The notes under the pieces: model-generated
The model's database searches: none
What the model saw: the letters and a program-made list of their open reading frames with translations, nothing else
Told to the model about the DNA's origin: nothing
Shown: piece after piece, positions 3,706 to 46,262 of the stretch
Layout of the letters: each line of letters starts with the position of its first letter
How positions within the stretch are numbered: the first letter of the stretch is position 1
Made by a program: the position numbers and the translations under genes
From: a virus
DNA length: 46,262 nucleotides
IMG/VR virus record: IMGVR_UViG_3300043788_000121
Span: 1 to 46,262 of that record
Strand: one strand, 5' to 3'

Positions 3706-4983
3706 TCAGGCCGTCGTGGTGGTGGCCTTTTCCTCAAGCTCGCGGGCAAGCTGCCGGTAACTGGCACGGTCAGCGGGGTCGGTGGCTGCTTCAGCCTTGG
3801 CCCGCATGAGCTGTGCCTTGGCGGCGGTGTCGTCGTGCGCTGGCCGGGTGGGCTGCATGGGCACGCCGGACACTGGTCCGCCTTGTCTCGGTAGCGCGAG
3901 CACCTTCGCCAGCTCGGCCCGCAGAGAGTCAATCTCTGCCTTCTGGGTCGCGAGGGCCTTCGTGACAGCGTCTTCCTGCGTCACAGTATCCACAGTCGTT
4001 ACCTCCGTAGCAACGCTCTTGGAAGCGGATGCGTCGGTGTCGTCGTCGTCCAGCGGGTTGGTGACGCCGAGCTCGCGGGCCCGGCGGGCGATGAGCTTGC
4101 GGGCGGCCTGCCAGTTGCCGTGCTTGCTGCGGGCGAGGATCGCGGCGCGGCGGAGCGCGTCGGCGTCGGGGATCGGGTAGGAGCCGTCCGGCAGTGCATG
4201 GCCGCCGGTCGCGTACTTCTTCCGCTCGGCGGTGGAGAACGTCCGCGAGTCCTTGACCAGGCCGGCGGCGTCGTACACCCAGGCGGACTGGGCGACCGGT
4301 TCCATCTCGTGGGACCGCCAGCAGGACAGCAGGTCCGCGGCGTCGGATAGCAGCGCGACGTCGCAGGTTTCGCCGAACTTGCCGGCGGCGATCTCCTGGG
4401 CTTCGTTCTCGATGGCCTGGGCGAGGAGGTGCATCATCTGGTCGGCGAGCTTGATGTCGGGGGCCTGGTCGATTTTGCCGTCCACGACGGCTTTCTTCGC
4501 CGCGGCGAGGGACTGTGCCACGTCGGAGATGTCGTCGAACGGTGACCGGGTACCGGATCCGGCGACGTCGGCGCCGGCGTGGTTGTGGGTGCCGTGGTCG
4601 TTGTCGCCGTGGTGGTCGTGCATATGCATGTGGAGGCCGTCGCCGTTGGGGTCTTCGCCGTTGCCGGCGGGGTGCTCGTGCATGTGCCGCCCGGTCCAGG
4701 GCTGGTGGCCGGGTTCGGCGGTGCCGGAGTCGTCGTCGGGCCGGCCGGTGTTCTCGGGTGAGTGGGATGGCGGGGCGACCTGGGTGGCTGGCTGCTCGGC
4801 GCCGGCGTGGCCGCGGTGCGTGTCTGCGGCGACACCGGCGGCGGCGTCTTTCGCGACGCCTTTCATGATCAGGTGGGGGAAGCCGTTCGCGGCGGACTTC
4901 ACCCCGGACACTTTCTGCGCGTCGATGACCTCGAACTCGGTGAGCTCCAGTTCCGGAGCCTCAGTGGCCGCTGCGGACATCAT
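3706..4983 (-). CDS. Capsid scaffold-like protein, His-rich, DUF6582-like
   Basis: 425 residues, start at the ATG pair at 4983 behind an AGGGAG site. The N-terminus (ELTEFEVIDAQKVSGVKSAA) resembles segments that follow XkdF-type protease domains. Residues about 95-140 form a striking His/Asp/Gly-rich stretch (HMHEHPAG, HMHMHDHHGDNDHGTHNH). The middle has a conserved-looking segment (RKKYATGGHALPDGSYPIPD, then an AILARSKHGNWQAARKLIARRARELG helix) that I recall from DUF6582-type phage proteins. The C-terminal 120 residues are predicted coiled coil. Its position just before the capsid gene supports a scaffold role; the protease proper is probably the gene at 8513. Confidence 0.7.
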   Translation of the reverse strand: MMSAAATEAPELELTEFEVIDAQKVSGVKSAANGFPHLIMKGVAKDAAAGVAADTHRGHAGAEQPATQVAPPSHSPENTGRPDDDSGTAEPGHQPWTGRHMHEHPAGNGEDPNGDGLHMHMHDHHGDNDHGTHNHAGADVAGSGTRSPFDDISDVAQSLAAAKKAVVDGKIDQAPDIKLADQMMHLLAQAIENEAQEIAAGKFGETCDVALLSDAADLLSCWRSHEMEPVAQSAWVYDAAGLVKDSRTFSTAERKKYATGGHALPDGSYPIPDADALRRAAILARSKHGNWQAARKLIARRARELGVTNPLDDDDTDASASKSVATEVTTVDTVTQEDAVTKALATQKAEIDSLRAELAKVLALPRQGGPVSGVPMQPTRPAHDDTAAKAQLMRAKAEAATDPADRASYRQLARELEEKATTTTA

Positions 4984-16567: not shown

Positions 16568-17674
16568 TCAGGTACGTCGCGTGATCTGCGCGTACATCTC
16601 TGGTGTGACCCGGACCGGGTGGGACGGGTCGTCGTAACCCCACGCCGCGGCGGCGAGGGGAGTCTCGATGTTCTTCGGGACGGTCAGTCCGAAGCGGCGG
16701 CGCGAGCCGTCCATCTCAGGTGTGCCGTTCCATGCGAGCAGCAACCGGACCGGGGTGCCCCACAGCCGCTCGGGCACGTCGTACAGCTCGATCTCCAGGC
16801 CAGGGTTTCCCGGGTCTGGTTCGGCTGCCACGCGATCCAGCTTTGCCTGCCGGGTAAAAACGTCCCAGCCGAGGGATTCGATGGCGCAGCGGCGGATCTC
16901 GACGTTTTCCTCGGCGCCGATCGCGGTGATGTCAGGCCGTTCGATAACCCAGGCGGGTACTGGCCGGCCGTGCCAGGCGTAGAACCCCCAGCTGTCCGGG
17001 TATCCGAGTGCCATGCCTGTAGCTGAGTGGAAGCGGCCGAGCGGGTCACGGTGCAGTGCGGACGGCCGCCCGGACAGGATGACAGCGCCGCGGAGCGGTA
17101 TCCACCAGCCGAGCTCACGGACCGCGGCCTCCAGCGCGTCGAGTTTCGGTTCGGGTCTGAGCCCGGCGATGGGCAGTGCGCAGTGGTAGAACGCGAGCCA
17201 GTAGGCGTCACGCCACGGGTACAGCGAGTAGTTCCAGATCCAGCTGGATGCCTGGTCCCCGAGCTGGCCCCGGAGCTGGCCCCCGAGCTGGTCCCCGAGC
17301 TGGCCCCGGAGCTGGCCCCCGAGCTGGTCCCAGAGCTGGCCCCCGAGCTGGCCCCAGAGCTGGCCCCGGAGCTGGCCCCGGAGCTGGCCCCGGAGCTGGT
17401 CCCCGAGCTGGTCCCCGAGCTGGATGTTCTTCGGCTTGGTCGTGAACAGTCCAGTTAGGACGGTCGCGGCGTAGATGCAGCCGAGCGGTGAGTCCATCCA
17501 GATGGTGAGCGGCGGGAACGGCAGGGAGTGCGCCTCGTAGAGGCGGCGGACGGCAGTCTCGGCTGCTGGCCGGCTGACAGGTGCGGTGGACAGTGCGGTG
17601 GTCATCCACTGGTCGCGGACGGTGGTGATGGTGTCGAGCTGGCTGCGGGTGAGGGTGCCCGCGTATGCGGTCAC
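16568..17674 (-). CDS. DUF6745-like protein with 14 tetrapeptide repeats
   Basis: 368 residues. Residues 1-85 are helical (DTITTVRDQWMTTALSTAPV; PLGCIYAATVLTGLF). Residues 86-141 are fourteen xxQL units (GDQL, RGQL, WGQL, GGQL). The C-terminal part has the HRDPLGRFHSATGMALGYPD segment near 208-227 and GFYAWHGRPVPAWVIERPD, which resemble the conserved core of the uncharacterised family I recall as DUF6745. Relatives in actinobacterial genomes often carry similar low-complexity repeats in the same place. The gene pairs with 16128-16550. It lies in the early region between replication genes and small zinc proteins. Function unknown. Confidence 0.7.
   Translation of the reverse strand: MTAYAGTLTRSQLDTITTVRDQWMTTALSTAPVSRPAAETAVRRLYEAHSLPFPPLTIWMDSPLGCIYAATVLTGLFTTKPKNIQLGDQLGDQLRGQLRGQLRGQLWGQLGGQLWDQLGGQLRGQLGDQLGGQLRGQLGDQASSWIWNYSLYPWRDAYWLAFYHCALPIAGLRPEPKLDALEAAVRELGWWIPLRGAVILSGRPSALHRDPLGRFHSATGMALGYPDSWGFYAWHGRPVPAWVIERPDITAIGAEENVEIRRCAIESLGWDVFTRQAKLDRVAAEPDPGNPGLEIELYDVPERLWGTPVRLLLAWNGTPEMDGSRRRFGLTVPKNIETPLAAAAWGYDDPSHPVRVTPEMYAQITRRT
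17261..17428. repeat. 12-bp minisatellite, 14 copies in frame
   Basis: The plus-strand heptamer GAGCTGG starts every 12 bases from 17261 to 17417, 14 times without a break, with the unit GAGCTGGYCCCN and few variants. Because 12 is divisible by 3, copy-number changes keep the frame. The encoded units are xxQL with x mainly G, R, D or W. Confidence 0.95.
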
Positions 17675-25113: not shown

Positions 25114-25415
25114 GACCGGGCCGTCTTCACTGCGGCCGCGTGGAACCGGGCCGCCAGCTCCGTGAACGCCGCCGCGATCTCCAGCGCACGCTCGCCAGAC
25201 AGGCACCGGACCTCAACCGGGCCCAGGTCCACCACCCCGATCGGGTCACGGTCGTCGTAGGTCCAGAACCGGACGTGGCAGCCGGTGACATCCGCGGAGA
25301 GGCACACCGACGCGGGCTCCAGGACAGGTCGCGGCTGACCGCCCGGCTCTGACGGGATGTAGCCCGCGATCGTGCCGGGCTGGTCTTCGGCCAGGCGTGC
25401 CAGCGGGGCGGTCAC
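25110..25415 (-). CDS. Small early protein, unknown
   Basis: 101 residues with a GTG start at 25415 overlapping the BldC-like stop (GTGA). The middle is beta-like (SADVTGCHVRFWTYDDRDPI, GVVDLGPVEVRCLSGERALE) and the C-terminus helical (IAAAFTELAARFHAAAVKTA). Similar short proteins with a strand-rich middle and a final helix occur in actinobacterial mobile elements. No function can be given. Confidence 0.6.
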   Translation of the reverse strand: MTAPLARLAEDQPGTIAGYIPSEPGGQPRPVLEPASVCLSADVTGCHVRFWTYDDRDPIGVVDLGPVEVRCLSGERALEIAAAFTELAARFHAAAVKTARS

Positions 25416-25603
25416 TTCGCGCCGCCGTTCAGCAGTGCCCGGACATCAGACTCCCGGAACCGGCAGTGACCGCCGGGGGTCCTGACCGCCGCAAGCTTCT
25501 TTTCCGCCGCCCAGCGCGTCACGGTCCGGGAACCAACCCGGAATATCTCCGCCACCTCCGCGGCTGTGAGCAGCTGCTCGCAGCCGACTGGTTTTCTGTT
25601 CAC
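25412..25603 (-). CDS. BldC-like MerR-family DNA-binding protein
   Basis: 63 residues from a GTG at 25603 with AAAGGAGC about nine bases upstream. The sequence LLTAAEVAEIFRVGSRTVTR, WAAEKKLAAVRTPGGHCRFR and ESDVRALLNGG follows the Streptomyces developmental regulator BldC almost residue for residue in the recognition parts (RTVTRWA, RTxGGHxRxRE). BldC is about 68 residues and consists only of the winged helix. It is known to bind direct repeats head-to-tail as multimers. Phage excisionases have the same fold. Second gene of the leftward early unit; likely regulator and/or recombination directionality factor. Confidence 0.85.
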   Translation of the reverse strand: MNRKPVGCEQLLTAAEVAEIFRVGSRTVTRWAAEKKLAAVRTPGGHCRFRESDVRALLNGGAK

Positions 25604-25677: not shown

Positions 25678-25914
25678 TTACGGGATGGTGGTGCGGCCTG
25701 CCTCGCGGGCGCGCTGGAGGAACCTGCCGACCTCGGCGGCCTCGACCTTGACGTTGCGCTTCTTGCCCTGCGCGCCCTTGCGGGACGGGAAGACGAGGAC
25801 TTCGATCTCGCCGGTGTCGATGAGCGCCCAGGCCATCCGGTAGGAGATGCCGGCCCGCAGGGCGAACTCGCGGACGCTGATAGGCGCCTCGGTGGTGGTC
25901 TCTGCTGCTGTCAT
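25678..25914 (-). CDS. Excisionase/Cro-like HTH protein, first leftward gene
   Basis: The best start is the ATG at 25914 (78 residues); an ATG at 25926 in the same frame is also possible. Neither has a clear ribosome site, so a leaderless message is conceivable. The sequence ISVREFALRAGISYRMAWAL and IDTGEIEVLVFPSRKGAQGK reads as a MerR/excisionase-type winged helix, followed by a helical end (VEAAEVGRFLQRAREAGR). GTGCAC motifs at 25928 and 25937 lie directly before the start. As first gene facing the repressor it fits a Cro- or Xis-like role. Confidence 0.65.
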   Translation of the reverse strand: MTAAETTTEAPISVREFALRAGISYRMAWALIDTGEIEVLVFPSRKGAQGKKRNVKVEAAEVGRFLQRAREAGRTTIP

Positions 25915-25927
25915 GCGGCCCACCATA

Positions 25928-25942
25928 GTGCACAGCGTGCAC
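25928..25942. promoter_or_regulatory. GTGCAC pair at 9-bp spacing before the leftward genes
   Basis: Two GTGCAC hexamers start at 25928 and 25937. The 14 bases 25928-25941 recur exactly at 26018-26031. The pair touches the start of the first leftward gene, so a bound protein would block its promoter or initiation. Candidate operator; binder unknown. Confidence 0.65.
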
Positions 25943-26017
25943 AGTGGCTAGCCAGTTGGCGCAGAAATGCCGGCGAGTTCCCTGCTGCTGGACATCCCCG
26001 GAGAGCATGCGTAGGCT

Positions 26018-26041
26018 GTGCACAGCGTGCAGACTGTGCAC
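26018..26041. promoter_or_regulatory. GTGCAN triplet at 9-bp spacing before the rightward genes
   Basis: GTGCAC, GTGCAG and GTGCAC start at 26018, 26027 and 26036, a strict 9-bp period. The array ends 24 bases before the repressor start at 26066. With the pair at 25928 it frames the divergent control region. The interval between both arrays (25945-26017) shows no gene. Confidence 0.7.
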
Positions 26042-26065
26042 GTGAATCGAGGTTAGGAACCGGAC

Positions 26066-26518
26066 ATGACGGCAAGCCCGCAGCCGCCACTACCGCCCGC
26101 GCCGCCCGAGTCCCAGCTCATCGCCGCCAGGCGCAAAGCGATGGACCCGCCGCCCTCCTACCGGAAGGCAGCGAAAGCGGCCGGCATCTCGCCAGAGCGG
26201 TGGCGGCAGATCGAGACCGGCATCGCCCGCGTAGCCCGGGGCACCGACGTTCCCGTCAGCGGCGTTCCCGCCGACACCATCGCCCGCATGGCGCACGCTG
26301 TCGGCGCCACCCCGGCCGAGCTCGAATCCTGCGGCCGTGCTGACGCCGCCGCCGAGCTGCGCCAGATCATCGCCGCCGAGCCGGCCTCGGACGCTGACGT
26401 CCTGGCCGACATCCTCAAGCGCGTCGCCGCCCTCGAGGAGCACTTCGGGCGGCCTCCCAAAAGACTGAGCTTCGAGCAGGAAGAAGAATCCCGTGACCGG
26501 AAGACGCGCGCTGTCTAG
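26066..26518 (+). CDS. XRE-type HTH protein, putative immunity repressor
   Basis: 150 residues with an ATG start behind AGGA. A Pro-rich N-terminus leads into an HTH (SQLIAARRKAMDPPPSYRKA, AKAAGISPERWRQIETGIAR) and VPADTIARMAHAVGATPAEL, the typical helix 4-5 region of XRE proteins. The C-terminal half is helical and acidic (DVLADILKRVAALEEHFGRP), probably for dimerisation; no LexA-like protease domain is present. First gene of the rightward lysogeny block, divergent from the Xis-like gene, which is the classical switch layout. Confidence 0.72.
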   Translation: MTASPQPPLPPAPPESQLIAARRKAMDPPPSYRKAAKAAGISPERWRQIETGIARVARGTDVPVSGVPADTIARMAHAVGATPAELESCGRADAAAELRQIIAAEPASDADVLADILKRVAALEEHFGRPPKRLSFEQEEESRDRKTRAV

Positions 26519-26786
26519 CCTGCGCCAGTGGGGTCCCGAGCTGGTCTGCGGCGGCCTCTGCCTGATCCTGGCCGGCACCCGCCAGCCAGCGGGCGCCGGC
26601 GCTGTCGCGCTCGTCCTCGGCATCGGCTGGTGGATGGGGCACCGCCACCGGACGCTGCCGCTGCACCGGCAGGTCCGCGAGATCTGGGAGACCACCCGGC
26701 GCATCGAGGACAGGGGCCTCGGCGAGGAGGGCCCGGGGGATGCTGCCGGGCCGCTGGCCCGCGTGCTGCCGATGCGCCGCCGCTAA
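26493..26786 (+). CDS. Small membrane protein between repressor and integrase
   Basis: 97 residues from a GTG at 26493 with GCAGGAAGAAG upstream, overlapping the repressor end by 26 bases. Two short hydrophobic helices (GPELVCGGLCLILAGT; GAGAVALVLGIGWWMG) are followed by a cytosolic charged tail (HRQVREIWETTRRIEDRGLG). Position in the lysogenic operon suggests expression in the prophage state, for example as an exclusion protein. Family not recognised. Confidence 0.6.
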   Translation: MTGRRALSSLRQWGPELVCGGLCLILAGTRQPAGAGAVALVLGIGWWMGHRHRTLPLHRQVREIWETTRRIEDRGLGEEGPGDAAGPLARVLPMRRR

Positions 26787-26802
26787 GGCGCACACTGAAG
26801 AC

Positions 26803-27966
26803 ATGGGCAAGGTAAACCGGCGCCAGCACGGCGAGGGTTCGGTCTATCAGCGCAAGGACGGCCGCTGGGTCGCTGCCGAGGACCTGGGCGTGCGCGGCGG
26901 GAAGCGGGACCGGCGGTATTTCTACGGTGCGACCGCCGATGAGGCCATGAAGAAGCGCGAGCGGTTCCGGGACCGGCGCAAGGACGGGTTCACCCTCCCG
27001 AAGGGGCGGCAGCCCTATGTCAGCGAGTGGCTGCTGCACTGGTTTCACACCACGTGCAAGCGCGAGGTCGAGGAGACGACCTGGCAGGGGTACAAGTCCA
27101 AGGTTGAGCTCTGGACCGCGCCGTTCTTCGAGCGGGTGCTGCTGGCGGAGCTGACCGAGGAGGACATCGAGGACTGGCATGCGTGGATGGAGGGTCAGGT
27201 CAGCGGGAAGACGGGCCGGCCGCTGTCGCCCTCGACGATCGGGCAGACGCACCGCATCCTGTCGGAGTGCGTCAGGCTGGCTGTCGCACGCGGCCGGACC
27301 CCGCGGAACCCGGTGTCGAACGTGACGCCTCCCCCGGCGGCCCTGCCGGATCTGGAGCCGCCGACTGCGGCGGAGGTGAGGCGGATCATGGCCCGCTGCC
27401 GGACGTGGCCGACTGGCGCCCGGTGGGTGCTGGGCATTACGACGGGGCTGCGGCAGGGGGAGATTCTCGGCCTGGAGTGGCCGCAGGTGAAGCTGGACGG
27501 TGACCGGCCGTCGGTGAGCGTGCTGCGGTCGGCGGCGCGGGTGAGCGGCAAGGGCCGCGTGGTGAAGGCGCCGAAGTCACGGTCGTCCAGGCGCTCGGTC
27601 CCGCTCTCGGTCGAGGCTGTCGCCGCGCTCAGGGCATTCCGGGACGGGCAGAAGGTCCGCGTCATCGGCGGGAAGGGTGATGTGCTGTTCCGCGGTTCCC
27701 GGCTGGGCCGGCCGCTGCACCCGCGGGTGGATTACGCGGACTGGCATGCGCTGCTCGATGATCTCGGCATCCCGCATTACCGGCCGCATGACATCCGGCA
27801 CGGGTACGCGACGATGCTGCTGGAGGAGGGCGTGGACCCGCGGGTGGTGCAGGCACTGCTGGGGCACAGCACGGGCGTGCTTCTGACGCGGTATCAGCAT
27901 GTGCGGGAGAACATGCATGATCAGGCGGCCAGCGCGATCAGCCGGGCGGTGTCCGGCGATGCGTGA
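26803..27966 (+). CDS. int: Tyrosine integrase
   Basis: 387 residues from the ATG at 26803; an upstream in-frame start at 26740 would overlap the previous gene and has no support. The N-terminal arm-binding region (GEGSVYQRKDGRWVAAEDLG) and the core-binding SAM-like region (YVSEWLLHWFHTTCKREVEE) precede the catalytic domain with Arg217 (GLRQGE), Lys258, His329-x2-Arg332 (RPHDIRHGYAT), His355 (LLGHS) and Tyr364 (TRYQHV). All six catalytic positions are intact. It lies directly beside attP, so it should integrate the phage at a host tRNA-Lys gene. Preceded by repressor and a membrane-protein gene. Confidence 0.95.
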   Translation: MGKVNRRQHGEGSVYQRKDGRWVAAEDLGVRGGKRDRRYFYGATADEAMKKRERFRDRRKDGFTLPKGRQPYVSEWLLHWFHTTCKREVEETTWQGYKSKVELWTAPFFERVLLAELTEEDIEDWHAWMEGQVSGKTGRPLSPSTIGQTHRILSECVRLAVARGRTPRNPVSNVTPPPAALPDLEPPTAAEVRRIMARCRTWPTGARWVLGITTGLRQGEILGLEWPQVKLDGDRPSVSVLRSAARVSGKGRVVKAPKSRSSRRSVPLSVEAVAALRAFRDGQKVRVIGGKGDVLFRGSRLGRPLHPRVDYADWHALLDDLGIPHYRPHDIRHGYATMLLEEGVDPRVVQALLGHSTGVLLTRYQHVRENMHDQAASAISRAVSGDA

Positions 27967-27986
27967 CAGCCATCCTGACAGCCTAG
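27964..27986. repeat. Putative integrase arm-type site, left arm
   Basis: TGACAGCC occurs at 27964-27971 and again at 27976-27983 (12-bp step). The 23-base block matches that at 28173-28195 at 21 positions and has the same orientation. The two blocks lie on opposite sides of the tRNA-like core, as arm-type integrase sites do. Confidence 0.7.
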
Positions 27987-28008
27987 GCTGTACAACGTGG
28001 CGCCGGTA

Positions 28009-28065
28009 GTGCACACTGTGCATGGTAAACGGGTCCTGAGCAGCCTGACTGTGCAGGCCGTGCAC
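28009..28065. promoter_or_regulatory. Two GTGCAN pairs at 9-bp spacing inside attP
   Basis: GTGCAC/GTGCAT start at 28009 and 28018, and GTGCAG/GTGCAC at 28051 and 28060, both with the 9-bp period seen in the switch region. They lie between the left arm repeats and the core. This is where excisionase sites lie in many attP regions. Confidence 0.65.
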
Positions 28066-28083
28066 ACGGGACGCTCGCAGGCT

Positions 28084-28133
28084 ACGGACTTTTAATCCGT
28101 GGGTTCTGGGTTCGAGCCCCAGGCGCCCCACCA
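28084..28133 (+). other. attP core: 3' half of a tRNA-Lys(UUU) gene
   Basis: The 50 bases form the 3' part of a tRNA: anticodon stem ACGGA/TCCGT with 7-base loop CTTTTAA (anticodon TTT at 28091-28093), a 5-base variable loop, T-arm CTGGG-TTCGAGC-CCCAG, the 3' acceptor strand GCGCCCC, discriminator A and encoded CCA. No matching 5' acceptor strand or D-arm lies upstream, so this is not a complete tRNA. It is a copy of the host gene end that restores the host tRNA after integration. Directly downstream of the integrase. Confidence 0.9.
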
Positions 28134-28172
28134 GCGGAAACAGGCCCAGGGCGCATCTTAGCGATCATGGCC

Positions 28173-28195
28173 TGACAGCCACGCTGACAGCCTAG
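28173..28195. repeat. Putative integrase arm-type site, right arm
   Basis: TGACAGCC at 28173-28180 and 28185-28192, the same 12-bp step and orientation as the block at 27964-27986. It ends 13 bases before the immunity gene start, so integrase binding here might also affect that gene. Confidence 0.7.
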
Positions 28196-28207
28196 AAGGG
28201 TTTTCTC

Positions 28208-28435
28208 ATGAACGCGCTAGGACCGCTGCTGCTCGTCGCGGCAGCCTGCTCCGCCTACTTCGCGCCGCTCCTGACGGCCTGCATCCGGGGCGTCCCGCAC
28301 AGCGGATCCGTGATCGTGATCAACGTGTTCCTCGGCTGGACCGTCATCGGCTGGGTCATCGCCATGGCGATGGCATGCCGCTCCGTCCCGCGCCGGCACG
28401 ACTACGGCAGCGGCCCGTCGGGGTGGCCGCGCTAG
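28208..28435 (+). CDS. Superinfection immunity membrane protein (Imm-like)
   Basis: 75 residues with an ATG start behind GAAGGG. Two membrane helices (LGPLLLVAAACSAYFAPLLT and VFLGWTVIGWVIAMAMA) flank a short loop with PHSGSVIVINVFLGWTVIGW, the signature of the T4 Imm-type superinfection immunity family (N-x3-GWT-x2-GW). Such proteins sit in the inner membrane and block DNA entry of related phages. It is rightward, directly beyond attP, so in the prophage it would lie near one att end and probably be expressed from a separate promoter. Confidence 0.82.
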   Translation: MNALGPLLLVAAACSAYFAPLLTACIRGVPHSGSVIVINVFLGWTVIGWVIAMAMACRSVPRRHDYGSGPSGWPR

Positions 28436-28608
28436 CTCGCCGGCCGGGATAACGCGCGCTGCACCAGGAGCCGGACGCCGCGCGTCACGGCCTCGCTTTC
28501 CTCCCGGCGCGCTCGTTCCTCCAGTGCCTCGGTCACGGCGCGCACGGAACGAGCCCACGCAAGCCGGGCCTGCCGGAGATCAGCGTCAGTAGGCGTGCGA
28601 GCGGTCAT
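28432..28608 (-). CDS. Small helical protein, leftward, tail-to-tail with Imm
   Basis: 58 residues from an ATG at 28608 with a GGGGGA stretch upstream. The sequence is one amphipathic helix (DADLRQARLAWARSVRAVTE, ALEERARREESEAVTRGVRL). Its stop overlaps the Imm stop by 4 bases from the other strand. Codon use fits a real gene, and it may form a unit with the GntR gene upstream. Function unknown. Confidence 0.5.
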   Translation of the reverse strand: MTARTPTDADLRQARLAWARSVRAVTEALEERARREESEAVTRGVRLLVQRALSRPAS

Positions 28609-28673
28609 AGGGAGTCCCCCGTGTCGCGAGTGGTAACTGGTACGACGCTGACCAGGCTAATCAGGATTACCGC

Positions 28674-28904
28674 TCAGCCGCAGACGATGTTGCCCTTGCC
28701 CCACGCTGTCTGGATGAGGCCCCGGCCGCGCAGTTCCTTCATTGCCCGCCGGATCGTCCCGTAGGACACTTGGTATTCATCCGCCAGATCTGGTTCAGAC
28801 CTTAGACGGTCACCTGGCAGCAGCTCGCCGCTGCTGATCTTCGCGGCGATGCTCTCGGCCACGCGCATGTACTCCAGCGGAACGCGGCCCGACCCCTCGC
28901 TCAT
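28674..28904 (-). CDS. GntR-family regulator (KorSA-like)
   Basis: 76 residues from the ATG at 28904. The product is only the winged helix: EYMRVAESIAAKISSGELLP, GDRLRSEPDLADEYQVSYGT, IRRAMKELRGRGLIQTAWGK. There is no ligand domain. Short GntR repressors of this type control transfer genes on actinomycete plasmids and integrative elements (Kor proteins). It is divergent from the transfer-like block and faces the repeat array at 28929-28984, a probable autoregulated operator. Confidence 0.8.
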   Translation of the reverse strand: MSEGSGRVPLEYMRVAESIAAKISSGELLPGDRLRSEPDLADEYQVSYGTIRRAMKELRGRGLIQTAWGKGNIVCG

Positions 28905-28928
28905 GCCGTCACGGTAAAGGACTCCTGC

Positions 28929-28984
28929 AGCTCTGTACACAATCGGAAGCTACAGGAGCTTGAACAGCTACATAAGCTGTGTAC
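28929..28984. promoter_or_regulatory. AGCT direct repeats (9-bp period) inside a GTACACA/TGTGTAC dyad
   Basis: AGCT starts at 28948, 28957, 28966 and 28975, an exact 9-bp period over four copies; a further AGCT lies at 28929. An inverted pair GTACACA (28935-28941) and TGTGTAC (28978-28984) encloses the array. The element fills the divergent gap between the GntR gene and the transfer-like block. The dyad would suit GntR, the head-to-tail repeats a BldC/Xis-type binder. Confidence 0.65.
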
Positions 28985-28994
28985 GCTCGGATTC

Positions 28995-29186
28995 GTGGAT
29001 GACATCGAATTCGCCCAGCTGCGCCACCGACTGCTCGCCAAGCTCGCCGAGGCCGTCCAGGTCAACGAAGAGCTCGTGATCCTGGAACGCCAGGTCCAGG
29101 CCGAGGAAGAGCGCCGCTCCGCCGGCGACACCAACGTCCGCGAGTTCCGGCCGCGGCCGTCCGGCACCGCCCCGGAGGACGAGTGA
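28995..29186 (+). CDS. Small coiled-coil protein, first gene of the transfer-like block
   Basis: 63 residues with a GTG start 10 bases after the operator dyad, so a leaderless message is possible. It is a single charged helix (QLRHRLLAKLAEAVQVNEEL; VILERQVQAEEERR) with a polar tail. It overlaps the DUF2637 gene by 4 bases. Similar short proteins head such modules in actinomycete elements. Confidence 0.65.
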   Translation: MDDIEFAQLRHRLLAKLAEAVQVNEELVILERQVQAEEERRSAGDTNVREFRPRPSGTAPEDE

Positions 29187-29764
29187 GCCATTCACGGGCC
29201 CGGCGGCGGACAGCGGTTGCGGCGCTGGCACTGCTGTCGGCGATCACCGGCTACATCAGTTACCTGCACGGGTTCGAGGTCGCCATCCTCGTCCACAATC
29301 CGCGGGCGGTGGCGTACTGGCTGCCGCTAGTGCCGGATCTGATGATCGTGACGTCGTCGATGACGTTGCTGGAAGCGCGGGCGTCGGCCGGGGTGCGGCC
29401 GTTCACGTCGATGACGGCGCTGGTGGCGGGGATCGGGTGGACGGTGGCGCAGAACGTGGCGGCCGGTCTGCATGATTCTCCTGGTAACGCGCTGATTTCG
29501 GCGGGGGTGCCGCTGGCGTTCGTGCTGACGTTTGAGTCGTTGCTGTCGCAGTTCCGTCAGGCGCGCGAGGGAAAGGCGGATATTAACTGTCCGCCGGACG
29601 ACGCCGGGCCGGTGGACGTGGCGGGCACGATGCGGCAGCTGGTGGAGTTCTACGGCTCCCAGCGGGCCGCGTCGGATGAGCTGCGGATTCCTCGTGACCA
29701 TCTCCGCAAGCTGATCGCGGTCCCGGCCGGGGCGGCGATGAACGGGGACGGTCCCCATGTGTGA
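29183..29764 (+). CDS. DUF2637 membrane protein (plasmid/AICE type)
   Basis: 193 residues. Four membrane helices (AVAALALLSAITGYISYLHG; YWLPLVPDLMIVTSSMTLLE; SMTALVAGIGWTVAQNVAAG; LISAGVPLAFVLTFESLLSQ) match the DUF2637 pattern, frequent on Streptomyces plasmids and integrative conjugative elements, where it lies near FtsK-type transfer genes. The cytosolic C-terminus has an HTH-like segment (GSQRAASDELRIPRDHLRKL). Role not known; a helper for transfer or spread is inferred from context. Confidence 0.82.
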   Translation: MSHSRARRRTAVAALALLSAITGYISYLHGFEVAILVHNPRAVAYWLPLVPDLMIVTSSMTLLEARASAGVRPFTSMTALVAGIGWTVAQNVAAGLHDSPGNALISAGVPLAFVLTFESLLSQFRQAREGKADINCPPDDAGPVDVAGTMRQLVEFYGSQRAASDELRIPRDHLRKLIAVPAGAAMNGDGPHV

Positions 29765-29891
29765 GCGGTGGCGGGCGTGGCGTATTTACCGGCGGCTGGT
29801 GCGTGAGCATCTGGATGCCGGGTGGCGGCTGAGCGAGTTCACGGTGGCGGAGTTCCGGGACCGGGCACGCCGGGAGGCCAGGCGTGGCTGA
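29757..29891 (+). CDS. 44-residue basic protein
   Basis: The ATG at 29757 overlaps the DUF2637 end by 8 bases, and the end overlaps the HNH gene by 8 bases. The product is Arg/Trp-rich and helical (CERWRAWRIYRRLVREHLDA, EFTVAEFRDRARREARRG). Likely a nucleic-acid or partner-binding peptide; nothing more can be said. Confidence 0.55.
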   Translation: MCERWRAWRIYRRLVREHLDAGWRLSEFTVAEFRDRARREARRG

Positions 29892-30294
29892 GCGGATCAG
29901 GTGGCGGAAGGTCCGGCGGGCCGGGCATTGCCGGGTGGCCAGCCACGGCGGCCGGGTGCGGTCAGTCGACCGGACGCTGACCGATGGCCGGCAGTGCGGC
30001 GGCCAGGAGCTGGCCCGGTACCGCGACGGCGACGGCTACTGGCACGTCACCATCAACGGCGAGCCGGTCGCCGTGGCCAGCATCGTGCTCGAGGCATTCG
30101 ACCGGCCGCGGCCGTACGGACTGGAGGCCTGCCACGGTTCTCTCGGCCAGGACTGCAACTGTGCCGCGAACCTCCGCTGGGATACCCACCTGGAGAACGA
30201 ACGGGACAAGAGACGAGCGGAAAGAGGAAGCAGGGCGGCAGGTGGGACTTGTCAGTTCTGCATTGGGACAGCTGAGACGTGTGAGGTGCAGTGA
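29884..30294 (+). CDS. HNH endonuclease-like protein
   Basis: 136 residues with a GTG start. The N-terminal strands (GGRVRSVDRTLTDGRQCGGQ; GYWHVTINGEPVAVASIVLE) resemble the NUMOD4/AP2-like part of HNH homing-type enzymes. The core LEACHGSLGQDCNCAANLRW and DTHLENERDKRR matches HNH_3 proteins (H...N...NLRW-x-T-x2-EN-x-DK). The C-terminus adds C-x2-C (CQFCIGTAETC). In transfer modules such nucleases may nick DNA, but a selfish homing role is also possible. Confidence 0.75.
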   Translation: MAERIRWRKVRRAGHCRVASHGGRVRSVDRTLTDGRQCGGQELARYRDGDGYWHVTINGEPVAVASIVLEAFDRPRPYGLEACHGSLGQDCNCAANLRWDTHLENERDKRRAERGSRAAGGTCQFCIGTAETCEVQ

Positions 30295-31988
30295 TAGCTG
30301 TCCTCGCTGTCGCAGCTGTCCTGGCCGGGCTGGGACTCTTCCGTGAGGTCCGGTCGCGGCTGAGACGGCATGGCTGGCACCGGATCGGCTACAGGTGGCT
30401 GACGGGCAAGCCGTGGCACGGGCAGGTGATCGATCCGGCGGTGTGGCGGTGGCCGGGCCGGTGGTTCTGGCGGATGTCGCAGCCCAGGCGGGCCGGAGTC
30501 CGGCTCGCTGTGACAGCGGCCAGCGGGGGGTCTGTAGCCCTATGGCTATACACCCCCTATGTCGCTGACCTGGTTTTCCTGTCTATCAGCTTGCTGGTTA
30601 GCGGGCTGTGCGTCTGGCTGTGCGTCCGGCAGCTCCTGCCGCATCACCGCAAGTGGGTCCGGCCGCTCCACGGCGCGCTCATCGAACGGCACGGGCTGCT
30701 GCGGCCGCCGCAGATCGACCGTGACCGCTCCCGCGTGGTGCAGCCGCTGCCGCGGGCGTGGGCCGGCGACGCGAAGGAACGCGCCGCGATCGTCGAGGTC
30801 ATCGTGGCCAAGACCGGCATCCCCGCGCCGGAAGCCAGGTGGCGGCTTGCCGGGCCGGCGCCGCGGCTGGAGCTGACGACCGGCGCGTCCGTCCCGGCGA
30901 CCGTCCGGCTCGCTGACGTGCGCCGGGCCATTGACGCGGCGAAACCGGACGAGCTGATCTGGGGTCTCGGCCGTGACGGGCCGGTGAAGTCGTCGCTGGC
31001 CAGCGACTCGCCTCACCTGGGGCTGTCGATGGGATCCGGTGCGGGGAAGTCGGTCACGATCCGCGCGATCCTCGCCCAGATGCTGCACCACGGCGCGATC
31101 GCGCTGGTCATCGACTACAAGCAGATCAGCCAGCACTGGGCACGTGACCTGCCGAACGTGTCGATTGTCCGGCACCCGCAGGAGATCCACGCCGCGCTGA
31201 TGTGGCTGGGCCGGGAGATCAGCCGCCGTAACGAGGTCGCGTTCTATGGTGCCGACCTTGAGGGCAACGTCCATTCGGTGGTCGGGCCGCGGCTGATCAT
31301 CGCCGGTGAGGAACTGAACGCGGCGATGAAGGCGCTGCGGATCTACTGGCGGCAGCTCCGCGACGAGGACAAGTCCCTGCCGGTCCGGCCGCCGTCGCTG
31401 GATTCGCTGGACCTGGTGAACCTGATGGGCCGGCAGGTGCTGATGAACATGCTGTATGTCGGGCAGCGGCTGTCGAACAAGGCGTCCGGCGGTGACGGTG
31501 ATGTGCGTGAGTCGATCGGCGTGATCGCGCTCGGCCGGTACAAGGCGTCGACGTGGAAGATGCTCGCCGAGGATCATCCGATGCCGCCGTCGACGCGGAA
31601 GCCGGGCCGGTTCCAGGTCGTCGCCGATGACGTGACCGAGGTCCAGGGCATCAAGATCACTGCGGTTGAGGCGCGTGAGCTGGCGTTGTCGGGGACGGTG
31701 TCGCTGCTGCCGCCGGGCATGCCGGGTGCACCGCGTGTCGCAGCTGGGACCGGACTAGCTATTTCCGGGACTGAGCAGGGGTTTGTCGCAGAGACATCGC
31801 CTGTTGTCTCAGTGCCGTCCGGCCGTGTGACGTTGTCGGAGGCGGTTGAGGAGGGGGTTGTGAGGCGGTCTTTGCATGCGGTGCGGAAGGCGTCGCAGCG
31901 TGATCCGGGGTTCCCGCGGCCGCGGGGGCTGCGGGGTACGGCACGTGAGTATGACCGGGTGGACCTGATGACGTGGGACGAGTCATGA
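30291..31988 (+). CDS. FtsK/SpoIIIE (TraB-like) DNA translocase
   Basis: 565 residues. The N-terminal 120 residues contain one or two membrane helices (GSVALWLYTPYVADLVFLSI, SLLVSGLCVWLCVRQLL). The motor domain has Walker A SMGSGAGKS at about 246-254, VIDYKQISQHW near 273-283 and the Walker B region LIIAGEELNA near 334-343. The C-terminus is a winged-helix-like segment (GRVTLSEAVEEGVVRRSLHA) that could recognise DNA repeats, as in TraB of Streptomyces plasmids, which moves double-stranded DNA between hyphae. It lacks the FtsK length. A clt-type repeat cluster was not found. Confidence 0.88.
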   Translation: MIAVLAVAAVLAGLGLFREVRSRLRRHGWHRIGYRWLTGKPWHGQVIDPAVWRWPGRWFWRMSQPRRAGVRLAVTAASGGSVALWLYTPYVADLVFLSISLLVSGLCVWLCVRQLLPHHRKWVRPLHGALIERHGLLRPPQIDRDRSRVVQPLPRAWAGDAKERAAIVEVIVAKTGIPAPEARWRLAGPAPRLELTTGASVPATVRLADVRRAIDAAKPDELIWGLGRDGPVKSSLASDSPHLGLSMGSGAGKSVTIRAILAQMLHHGAIALVIDYKQISQHWARDLPNVSIVRHPQEIHAALMWLGREISRRNEVAFYGADLEGNVHSVVGPRLIIAGEELNAAMKALRIYWRQLRDEDKSLPVRPPSLDSLDLVNLMGRQVLMNMLYVGQRLSNKASGGDGDVRESIGVIALGRYKASTWKMLAEDHPMPPSTRKPGRFQVVADDVTEVQGIKITAVEARELALSGTVSLLPPGMPGAPRVAAGTGLAISGTEQGFVAETSPVVSVPSGRVTLSEAVEEGVVRRSLHAVRKASQRDPGFPRPRGLRGTAREYDRVDLMTWDES

Positions 31989-32182
31989 GTGACCTGATCC
32001 CGGTCCTGATTGTCGTGGTGCCGGTGGCGGGCTGGCTGGCGGATGCGTGGCTGCGTCCGTGGCTGCCGTGCAGCTGCCAGGGCCGTAAGTGCGCGCGCTG
32101 CCGGTGGGCGGGCAAGCGGCCGAAGATGCTCGCTCGCGTGGTGCGGCGGGCTCATCTGAGAGATGAAGGGTGGCTGAAATGA
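31985..32182 (+). CDS. Small membrane protein after the translocase (Spd-like)
   Basis: 65 residues with an ATG overlapping the translocase stop. An N-terminal membrane helix (LIPVLIVVVPVAGWLADAWL) is followed by a Cys-rich basic tail (WLPCSCQGRKCARCRWAGKR). Short membrane proteins after traB genes are often spread (Spd) proteins in Streptomyces plasmids; this assignment is by position only. Confidence 0.65.
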   Translation: MSDLIPVLIVVVPVAGWLADAWLRPWLPCSCQGRKCARCRWAGKRPKMLARVVRRAHLRDEGWLK

Positions 32183-32289
32183 GGAAGCGATTCAGGCGGG
32201 GTTCGCCGAACAGTCAGTGCGGGTGCTGCGGCTGCCGCAAGTGGCTGTGCTCATGCAAGTGCTGCTGCGGGAAGGGCAAGCGGCGGTGA
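32179..32289 (+). CDS. 36-residue Cys-rich microprotein
   Basis: The ATG at 32179 overlaps the upstream stop (ATGA) and the stop overlaps the next GTG. Nine of 36 residues are Cys (CGCCGC, then CSCKCCC), the rest mostly Lys/Arg/Gly. The pattern is like metallothionein or a zinc/iron-binding peptide. Similar clusters of Cys appear in the preceding protein's tail. No family recognised; too short for most gene callers. Confidence 0.6.
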   Translation: MRKRFRRGSPNSQCGCCGCRKWLCSCKCCCGKGKRR

Positions 32290-32384
32290 GAACGATGTCG
32301 GGCCGCGACTGGCTGACCGACCCGTCCGAGATACGCCGCCGGAAGATCTCCAAAGCCAGCTATGACAAGCGGGGGGCCAATTAG
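32286..32384 (+). CDS. 32-residue basic peptide
   Basis: A GTG at 32286 overlaps the upstream stop (GTGA); an ATG at 32295 is an alternative. The product contains SGRDWLTDPSEIRRRKISKA and ends at a TAG that overlaps the next GTG. Its place in a chain of overlapping genes supports translation. Unknown. Confidence 0.5.
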   Translation: MRTMSGRDWLTDPSEIRRRKISKASYDKRGAN

Positions 32385-32791
32385 TGGAGCGGTTCAAATT
32401 CGCGCTGAAGGTCGCGGGGGCGTTCGGGCTGGTGCCGCCGGGCGGCATCCTGGCGGTCGAGACGGTGAACTCACGGTCGCTGACCGGCATCGCCGATCAT
32501 GCGGGGCTCGTGGTGCGGGTCGCGGTCGCGGTCGTGTACAGCCTGGTGCTGGTGGCCCTGACGGTCCTGGCGTTGCTGTGGCGGAAGCACCGGCGCGTTG
32601 AGACGTGGCGGCCCGCCCGGCCCGTGAAACCCCCCGTGCCGGCGCTGCCGAAGGCACGGTTGCGGCTGCAGCTGGAACCACCGGAACTGCCCGGGCGGAT
32701 GGCGATGATCGAGGCCGACGCCCGCCGCCGGCATAAGGCAGGCCGGTACGTGGTGGCCGGCCAGATCGTGAAAGACGACGACGGGTCGTGA
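32384..32791 (+). CDS. Membrane protein of the transfer-like block
   Basis: 135 residues with a GTG start in TAGTG. One strong membrane helix (AVAVVYSLVLVALTVLALLW) and possibly a weaker first one (ALKVAGAFGLVPPGGILAVE), then a Pro/Arg-rich cytosolic tail (RPARPVKPPVPALPKARLRL). Could be a further Spd-like protein. No domain recognised. Confidence 0.6.
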   Translation: MERFKFALKVAGAFGLVPPGGILAVETVNSRSLTGIADHAGLVVRVAVAVVYSLVLVALTVLALLWRKHRRVETWRPARPVKPPVPALPKARLRLQLEPPELPGRMAMIEADARRRHKAGRYVVAGQIVKDDDGS

Positions 32792-32925
32792 GCCGGAAAC
32801 GCCGGTTTTATTCGCTGCTGGGTCATGCGAAGTGGCTGGTCCGGTTCGGCCGGTACCGTGAGGCGCGGATGGTGCTGGCCAGCGCGCAGGACGAACTGGA
32901 CCGCATCGAGGAAACCGGCCGCTAG
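32788..32925 (+). CDS. 45-residue helical protein, last of the block
   Basis: A GTG at 32788 overlaps the upstream stop. The product reads FYSLLGHAKWLVRFGRYREA, RMVLASAQDELDRIEETGR, helical and basic. Its stop overlaps the end of the leftward GntR gene by 4 bases, so two transcripts meet here without an intergenic terminator. Unknown function. Confidence 0.55.
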   Translation: MSRKRRFYSLLGHAKWLVRFGRYREARMVLASAQDELDRIEETGR

Positions 32926-33173
32926 CCCGGTTTCCATCCGGGCCGGGGCGTGACGTACATGCCCCGGCCCATCACTGTCCGGATCCTGCCCTCACCGCGA
33001 AGCACGTCCAGGGCCTGCTCTACCACCCCCTGCGACACGCCCAGCTCCTGCCGCAGCGACACTTTCGACGGGATGGGCCGGTCGGCCGCGTACTCCCCCG
33101 ATTCGATCCGGTCCCGGATCCACCCGGCGACCTGCACGTACAGCGGCACCGGGCCCTCAAAGTCGATGCTCAT
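32922..33173 (-). CDS. Second GntR-family regulator
   Basis: 83 residues from the ATG at 33173. Only the winged helix is present (PLYVQVAGWIRDRIESGEYA, RPIPSKVSLRQELGVSQGVV, EQALDVLRGEGRIRTVMGRG). It differs clearly from the GntR protein at 28674, so the two flank the transfer-like block with separate specificities. It faces three GTACC motifs at 33188-33263, a likely operator. Confidence 0.8.
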   Translation of the reverse strand: MSIDFEGPVPLYVQVAGWIRDRIESGEYAADRPIPSKVSLRQELGVSQGVVEQALDVLRGEGRIRTVMGRGMYVTPRPGWKPG

Positions 33174-33187
33174 ACCCCCGCAACCTA

Positions 33188-33263
33188 GGTACCGGCAGGT
33201 AACTGTCACCTCCCGGATACACCCCCGTGCACTATCTAGTACCCGGGGGCGCACAGAGGTACC
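33188..33263. promoter_or_regulatory. Three GTACC motifs between divergent genes
   Basis: GGTACC at 33188 and 33258 and AGTACC at 33238 lie in the 99-base gap between the GntR gene and the rightward gene at 33273. The last copy is 10 bases before that start. GGTACC is itself palindromic. Candidate operator for the adjacent GntR protein; no clear promoter boxes can be assigned. Confidence 0.5.
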
Positions 33264-46186: not shown

Positions 46187-46262
46187 CAGGACCGCCACAC
46201 GGGTGCGTACCGCTGCAGCCACCCGTACGCGTCGTTGATCAGGGAACCGCCGGCGCCGCGCG
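46186..46262 (-). CDS. Head-tail connector protein (3' end, continues from 1-923)
   Basis: Reading leftward from the repeat at 46262, the connector frame goes through Ser-Leu-Ile-Asn-Asp-Ala-Tyr-Gly-Trp and ends VWRS at a TGA (46188-46186). That stop overlaps the next ATG by one base. The short C-terminal Trp-rich end is typical. The first residues coded here duplicate those at 3-28. Confidence 0.8.
   Translation of the reverse strand, partial: RGAGGSLINDAYGWLQRYAPVWRS
46237..46262. repeat. Terminal direct repeat, right copy
   Basis: The last 26 bases are identical to 3-28. Removing one copy joins the ends into a circle of about 46,236 bp with an uninterrupted connector gene. Confidence 0.85.

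Follow-up and report, generated by a model that had tools for sequence, protein, structure and literature searches.

Which protein recognizes the GTGCA repeats that recur, at a fixed 9-bp step, in both the genetic switch and the phage attachment site (attP) of the virus record IMGVR_UViG_3300043788_000121, and could a single protein serve both places? We analysed the whole record of 46,262 bp, referred to below as the window. All nine GTGCA units lie on the + strand and start exactly where the first-pass annotation had placed them (25928, 25937, 26018, 26027, 26036, 28009, 28018, 28051 and 28060), forming the following arrays:

25928..25942, + strand: S1, two GTGCA units at a 9-bp step, directly upstream of the 82-residue gene of the leftward operon
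26018..26041, + strand: S2, three GTGCA units at a 9-bp step, 25–48 bp upstream of the repressor-like gene
28009..28023, + strand: X1, a GTGCA pair in attP, with integrase arm sites on one side and the core on the other
28051..28065, + strand: X2, a GTGCA pair in attP that adjoins the tRNA-like core

Judging from the sequence, we see an even chance that a small winged-helix protein encoded in the lytic operon, most likely a BldC-like one of 63 residues, binds these nine units head-to-tail.

The + strand of the record holds five GTGCA-N4-GTGCA pairs (at 25928, 26018, 26027, 28009 and 28051), and the single minus-strand match is the palindromic reading of the 25928 site. Exact pairs are confined, genome-wide, to the divergent region between the repressor and lytic genes and to attP, and dinucleotide shuffles of the window contained a mean of 0.11 and a maximum of 2 pairs (n=300) versus the 5 real ones. 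With one mismatch tolerated, 13 sites were detected versus 4.4 expected, three of them outside the switch and attP. To avoid post hoc choice of a word, we also tallied every recurrence of a 5-mer, whatever its letters, at steps 6–15 within the switch (25927–26065) and within attP (27967–28207). In the switch, step 9 alone scored (6 versus 0.26 expected; 0/400 shuffles), while in attP steps 9 and 12 both scored (0/400 shuffles each) and step 7 did so weakly (0.02), the signal at step 12 being due to the integrase arm-type repeats. A tandem 5-mer common to a shuffled switch and attP at one and the same step (7–13) arose in 1 of 2000 trials. The deviations among the units fall only 3′ of GTGCA, so that the units look directional, and the sixth base is C in six of the nine. 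Six other actinophage genomes carried 0 or 1 copy each of GTGCA-N4-GTGCA, none of them in the switch, and a search of viral contigs with the five-unit GTGCA pattern yielded no related phage among the matches listed.

The attP region starts directly downstream of the integrase gene, and its anatomy includes arm repeats and a tRNA-Lys-like core that were missing from the first-pass annotation:

26803..27966, + strand: tyrosine integrase (PF00589 and PHROG 1 integrase)
27964..27983, + strand: P-arm integrase-type sites, two copies of TGACAGCC at a 12-bp step (starts 27964 and 27976)
28068..28130, + strand: attP core, a tRNA-Lys(UUU)-like segment (Rfam tRNA, 39.1 bits versus a gathering threshold of 29)
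28173..28192, + strand: P′-arm integrase-type sites, two copies of TGACAGCC at a 12-bp step (starts 28173 and 28185)

The two arm copies of TGACAGCC together make up a 26-bp direct repeat of 88% identity. The order along attP is P-arm sites, X1, X2, tRNA-like core and P′-arm sites. In attP of the lambda type, the usual order is integrase arm sites, sites of the recombination directionality factor (RDF), core and arm sites; the tandem units X1 and X2 thus lie where RDF sites are expected, between the arm repeats and the core. The same sites, GTGCA-N4-GTGCA, are present at att and in the early promoter region, as in a regulator that acts both as RDF and at the switch. The exact pattern of the tRNA core matched no host genome, and single-sequence scans of viral contigs and GTDB genomes detected no close relatives of the integrase. 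A superinfection-immunity protein (PF14373, 28208–28435) adjoins attP.

At the switch, the rightward genes encode a 150-residue helix-turn-helix (HTH) protein, a 97-residue protein and the integrase, while the leftward genes encode the 82-residue protein (p82), the BldC-like protein and then a long minus-strand block of recombination and structural genes:

25412..25603, − strand: 63-residue BldC-like winged-helix protein, the favoured candidate for binder and RDF
25678..25926, − strand: p82, first gene of the lytic operon, with a divergent HTH_17-like domain, the rival candidate for binder
26066..26518, + strand: 150-residue HTH protein (HTH_31, E 1.3e-5, just under the cut-off)

The 150-residue protein is probably the immunity repressor, and the switch arrays adjoin both start codons, S1 at p82 and S2 at the repressor-like gene. 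A scan for sigma-70 promoters by consensus located none. A perfect 10-bp palindrome, TGGCTAGCCA, lies between S1 and S2 (25945–25954) and is a candidate repressor operator.

The 63-residue protein had been proposed to be a BldC homologue, and its score for the curated NCBIfam subfamily HTH_BldC (NF033787) bears this out, at 80.3 bits versus a cut-off of 77. It also passed the cut-offs of the excisionase domain family (TIGR01764, 43.9 versus 28.8) and HTH_17 (52.9 versus 27), and is in these respects a small winged-helix member of the excisionase domain family, as RDFs are. Its best solved relative is BldC itself (6AMA, E 5.7e-16). BldC binds head-to-tail to 9-bp direct repeats, AATTXXXX(C), and bends the DNA (PMC5859096). 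With the DNA-contact residues Lys26, Arg30, His46, Arg47 and Arg48 numbered as in PMC5859096 and read from the 6AMA alignment, Arg30 (the major-groove contact), Lys36, His46 and Arg48 are kept, while Lys26 is replaced by Arg and Arg47 of the wing by Cys. In its two closest viral homologues, the gene lies near the terminase, not near int, and has no array.

Relatives of the 63-residue protein were detected in 35 phage records. A BldC-like gene stands at or near the first place opposite the repressor in the Gordonia phages UmaThurman, Obliviate, Dogfish, Schnabeltier, Pipp and Bunker, and the same holds for the Arthrobacter phages Popper and Zaheer and for M. abscessus prophages (the opposite gene bears no repressor name in Zaheer or Pipp). 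In the Arthrobacter phage Andrew and in Renna12, the BldC-like gene comes second, after a Cro-like HTH gene, matching the layout of the window. These switch genes are sometimes annotated as 'excise' or 'excisionase and transcriptional regulator'. Because BldC-like or 'excise' switch proteins are common in actinophages, the putative capture, by a phage, of a developmental regulator would be nothing new. We searched 18 other switches for any word, four bases or longer, that occurs three times at a constant step of 7 to 13. Only three switches had one, in each case at step 9: Dogfish and Pipp have CGACA, Bunker has GACA (locus coordinates):

4887–4909, Dogfish: (C)GACA three times at 9-bp steps, in the switch
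4904–4926, Pipp: (C)GACA three times at 9-bp steps, in the switch
3953–3974, Bunker: (C)GACA three times at 9-bp steps, in the switch

Each of these arrays is followed by TTTCGTGTCG, and the linkers differ between the phages; GACA-N5-GACA is otherwise absent from the 8–10 kb loci. In all three phages, the BldC-like gene is the first lytic gene and lies beside the array, so the 9-bp array follows a BldC-like gene, not a p82-like one. The UmaThurman switch holds ATGCAC four times (locus 4829–4937; three copies share a strand, the fourth is on the opposite one), with no 9-bp register, and was not used as support; these copies are possible repressor operators.

A mechanism may be proposed for the BldC-like protein. 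One monomer would occupy each 9 bp, head-to-tail on the GTGCA units. Once the lytic operon is on, the protein would multimerise on S2 and S1, and the resulting filament would repress the repressor–integrase operon and, at higher dose, its own operon. Within the stretch of attP that separates the P-arm sites from the tRNA core, the same protein would coat and bend the DNA at X1 and X2 and so switch the integrase from integration to excision. We infer these functions (binding, repression, bending and directionality) from anatomy and comparison. The fuller version, a true BldC-family protein that acts as both switch regulator and excision factor, forms 9-bp filaments on a word that is not AT-rich in both places and possibly times a conjugation-like module through a further array of AGCT repeats, appears unlikely.

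Several observations weigh against the BldC-like protein as the binder. BldC requires an AT-rich half in each 9-mer, and replacement of AATT with GGCC abolished binding (PMC5859096); the GTGCA units hold 0–2 A/T of 4 at that place. It is a guess that the change of Arg47 to Cys in the wing relaxes this requirement. Most other phages with BldC-like genes have no 9-bp array at the switch. The three Gordonia proteins are mutually related (51–54% to that of Dogfish), so their arrays are not independent cases. Around int, neither Dogfish, Pipp nor Bunker showed an exact copy of its array, Pipp having one pair elsewhere, so signs of joint use of a word at switch and attP come from the present phage. 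In addition, p82 lies nearer the switch and may share the fold. It is conceivable, if rather unlikely, that p82 is a Cox-like RDF and regulator acting on the GTGCA arrays, and that the BldC-like protein acts elsewhere, for example in the control of late or transfer genes. p82 holds the position of Cox or Cro, with S1 immediately upstream of its start, the GTGCA units lack the AT-rich half just described, and the resemblance of p82 to HTH_17 is weak (E 0.0059 inside this record and 0.086 library-wide, under the cut-off). A structure model of p82 shows an H-H-E-E-H layout, but it was built without alignments and is of low confidence (mean predicted local distance difference test score, pLDDT, 57). 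Searches with structure models yielded no significant fold match; P2 Cox (4LHF) ranked third for p82, but at E 1.6. A comparison of p82 with phage Xis proteins by hhalign gave E 0.007 at a probability of 5%. No homologues of p82 were found by tblastn of phages and plasmids or by a single-sequence scan of viral contigs. Moreover, 9 bp is the documented spacing of BldC, whereas that of the phage regulator Apl is 10–11 bp, and the Gordonia trio has its 9-bp arrays with a BldC-like first lytic gene. Because these three phages pair a BldC-like gene with a 9-bp switch array, the BldC-like protein appears to be the likelier binder.

A further point against the BldC-like protein is that GTGCAC is self-complementary, so that GTGCAC-N3-GTGCAC doubles as an inverted repeat, a perfect one in the 15 bp of S1. 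The immunity repressor might accordingly bind this inverted repeat, with the attP copies as repressor sites controlling int or excision; an operator is expected in this region, and a GACA...TGTC inversion ends the arrays of Dogfish, Pipp and Bunker. However, dimer sites would overlap on the three units of S2, the deviations always fall 3′ of GTGCA, the palindrome between S1 and S2 could be the operator instead, and RDFs, not repressors, bind in the interval from arm sites to core. We regard this repressor-based explanation as distinctly improbable. Still more remote, and very improbable, is the idea that the attP units are extra sites for the integrase or an accessory protein and resemble the switch arrays by coincidence. 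The integrase arm sites in attP are likewise tandem direct repeats, but they consist of a different word at a 12-bp step, and the rare chance sharing of a tandem 5-mer in the shuffles argues against coincidence.

The remaining 9-bp array consists of AGCT, whose four starts are exact as first reported (28948, 28957, 28966 and 28975), a fifth AGCT at 28929 being out of register:

28942..28986, + strand: separate AGCT array at a 9-bp step, in the control region of the GntR/FtsK-like module
28674..28940, − strand: GntR-type regulator adjoining the AGCT array (PF00392)

Any 4-mer repeated four times at steps 7–13 was found in 0/5000 shuffles of the 90-bp region of this array, and two further chains of a 4-mer repeated four times at step 9 occur elsewhere in the window. 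The first-pass annotation had proposed that one protein could couple the switch, excision and the transfer-like promoter. The shared directional 9-bp word suggests that the first two parts of this proposal are probably right; the extension to the transfer promoter is unsupported, because AGCT is a different word, sharing none with GTGCA, and stands beside its own GntR gene. It is quite unlikely that, as an addition to the role of the BldC-like protein at switch and attP, this protein also binds the AGCT array and couples transfer genes to excision. The step is exactly 9 bp, the array falls in the 60-mer with the highest AT content of the whole window, its 9-mers (ATCGGAAGC, TACAGGAGC, TTGAACAGC, TACATAAGC and TGTGTACGC) are nearer to the AATTXXXX(C) of BldC (PMC5859096) than the GTGCA units are, and RdfS, the RDF of ICEMlSymR7A, is needed for transfer as well as for excision (PMC11963761). 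Against this, the array lies between the GntR-type gene and the genes probably under its control, a small gene followed by DUF2637 and FtsK-like genes; the region also holds an inverted pair, TGTACACA / TGTGTAC; and KorSA-like GntR proteins bind such intergenic control regions in actinomycete integrative and conjugative elements (AICEs) (PMC8584621). The KorSA-like motif of SCO3932 had no match at the array. The AGCT array may belong to a KorSA-like GntR control region or may be bound by the BldC-like protein; we treat it as an element in its own right, within the GntR/FtsK-like module. An AICE-like set of genes extends over 28674–33254, with two GntR-type regulators, a DUF2637 protein and an FtsK/SpoIIIE-like protein of 565 residues, for which tblastn of the phage collection returned one record, Streptomyces phage Dagobah (30.5%).

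Elsewhere in the window, a tandem 12-bp repeat with about 14 copies around GAGCTGG (17252–17430) lies inside an open reading frame on the − strand (16568–17674), where it encodes a tetrapeptide-type repeat (GQLRGQLRGQLWGQL...) in one protein. The ends of the record (3–28 and 46237–46262) share a 26-nt sequence, GATCAGGGAACCGCCGGCGCCGCGCG, and an open reading frame runs off each end, so a circular or terminally redundant record is possible.

If the BldC-like protein is the binder, a BldC-type RDF would have arrays that can be read from sequence, with a clear word and a fixed 9-bp register. Phage members of this group are mostly annotated merely as HTH or 'excise', and RDFs, attP limits and switch operators would become findable from actinophage sequence alone. 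The unusual head-to-tail coating of DNA by BldC would also be tied to phage excision.

In phage P2, cox is the first lytic gene. The present phage shares with coliphage 186 (Apl) and P2 (Cox) the order att–int–repressor, switch, small winged-helix (RDF) genes and lytic genes, and likewise has direct-repeat sites at att and between the presumed early promoters. Unlike 186 and P2, it has two candidate winged-helix genes, one of the BldC type. Apl, an RDF and regulator, recognizes repeats spaced 10–11 bp at att and between the early promoters (PMC7498355), whereas the steps here are 9 bp. With Streptomyces BldC, the 63-residue protein shares subfamily membership, Arg30, Lys36, His46 and, at its candidate sites, the head-to-tail 9-bp repeats; unlike BldC, it is phage-encoded, carries K26R and R47C, has candidate sites that are not AT-rich, and would act in switch and excision, not in development. 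The BldC-like or 'excise' proteins of actinophages (UmaThurman, Obliviate, Dogfish, Pipp, Bunker, Popper, Andrew and the M. abscessus prophages) are likewise small BldC/TIGR01764-type proteins at the switch, but those scanned scored 31–59 bits, under the BldC cut-off that the 63-residue protein passes; their words differ or no 9-bp array was seen, and attP arrays were not found in Dogfish and Pipp. RdfS is a winged-helix RDF that acts at attP and its own promoter and structurally resembles BldC (PMC11963761). It carries an additional N-terminal helix and recognizes no consensus motif, in contrast to the clear word and fixed register of the present arrays. The arrangement of a dual RDF and switch regulator is known from other phages; its proposed 9-bp BldC-type version would be new.

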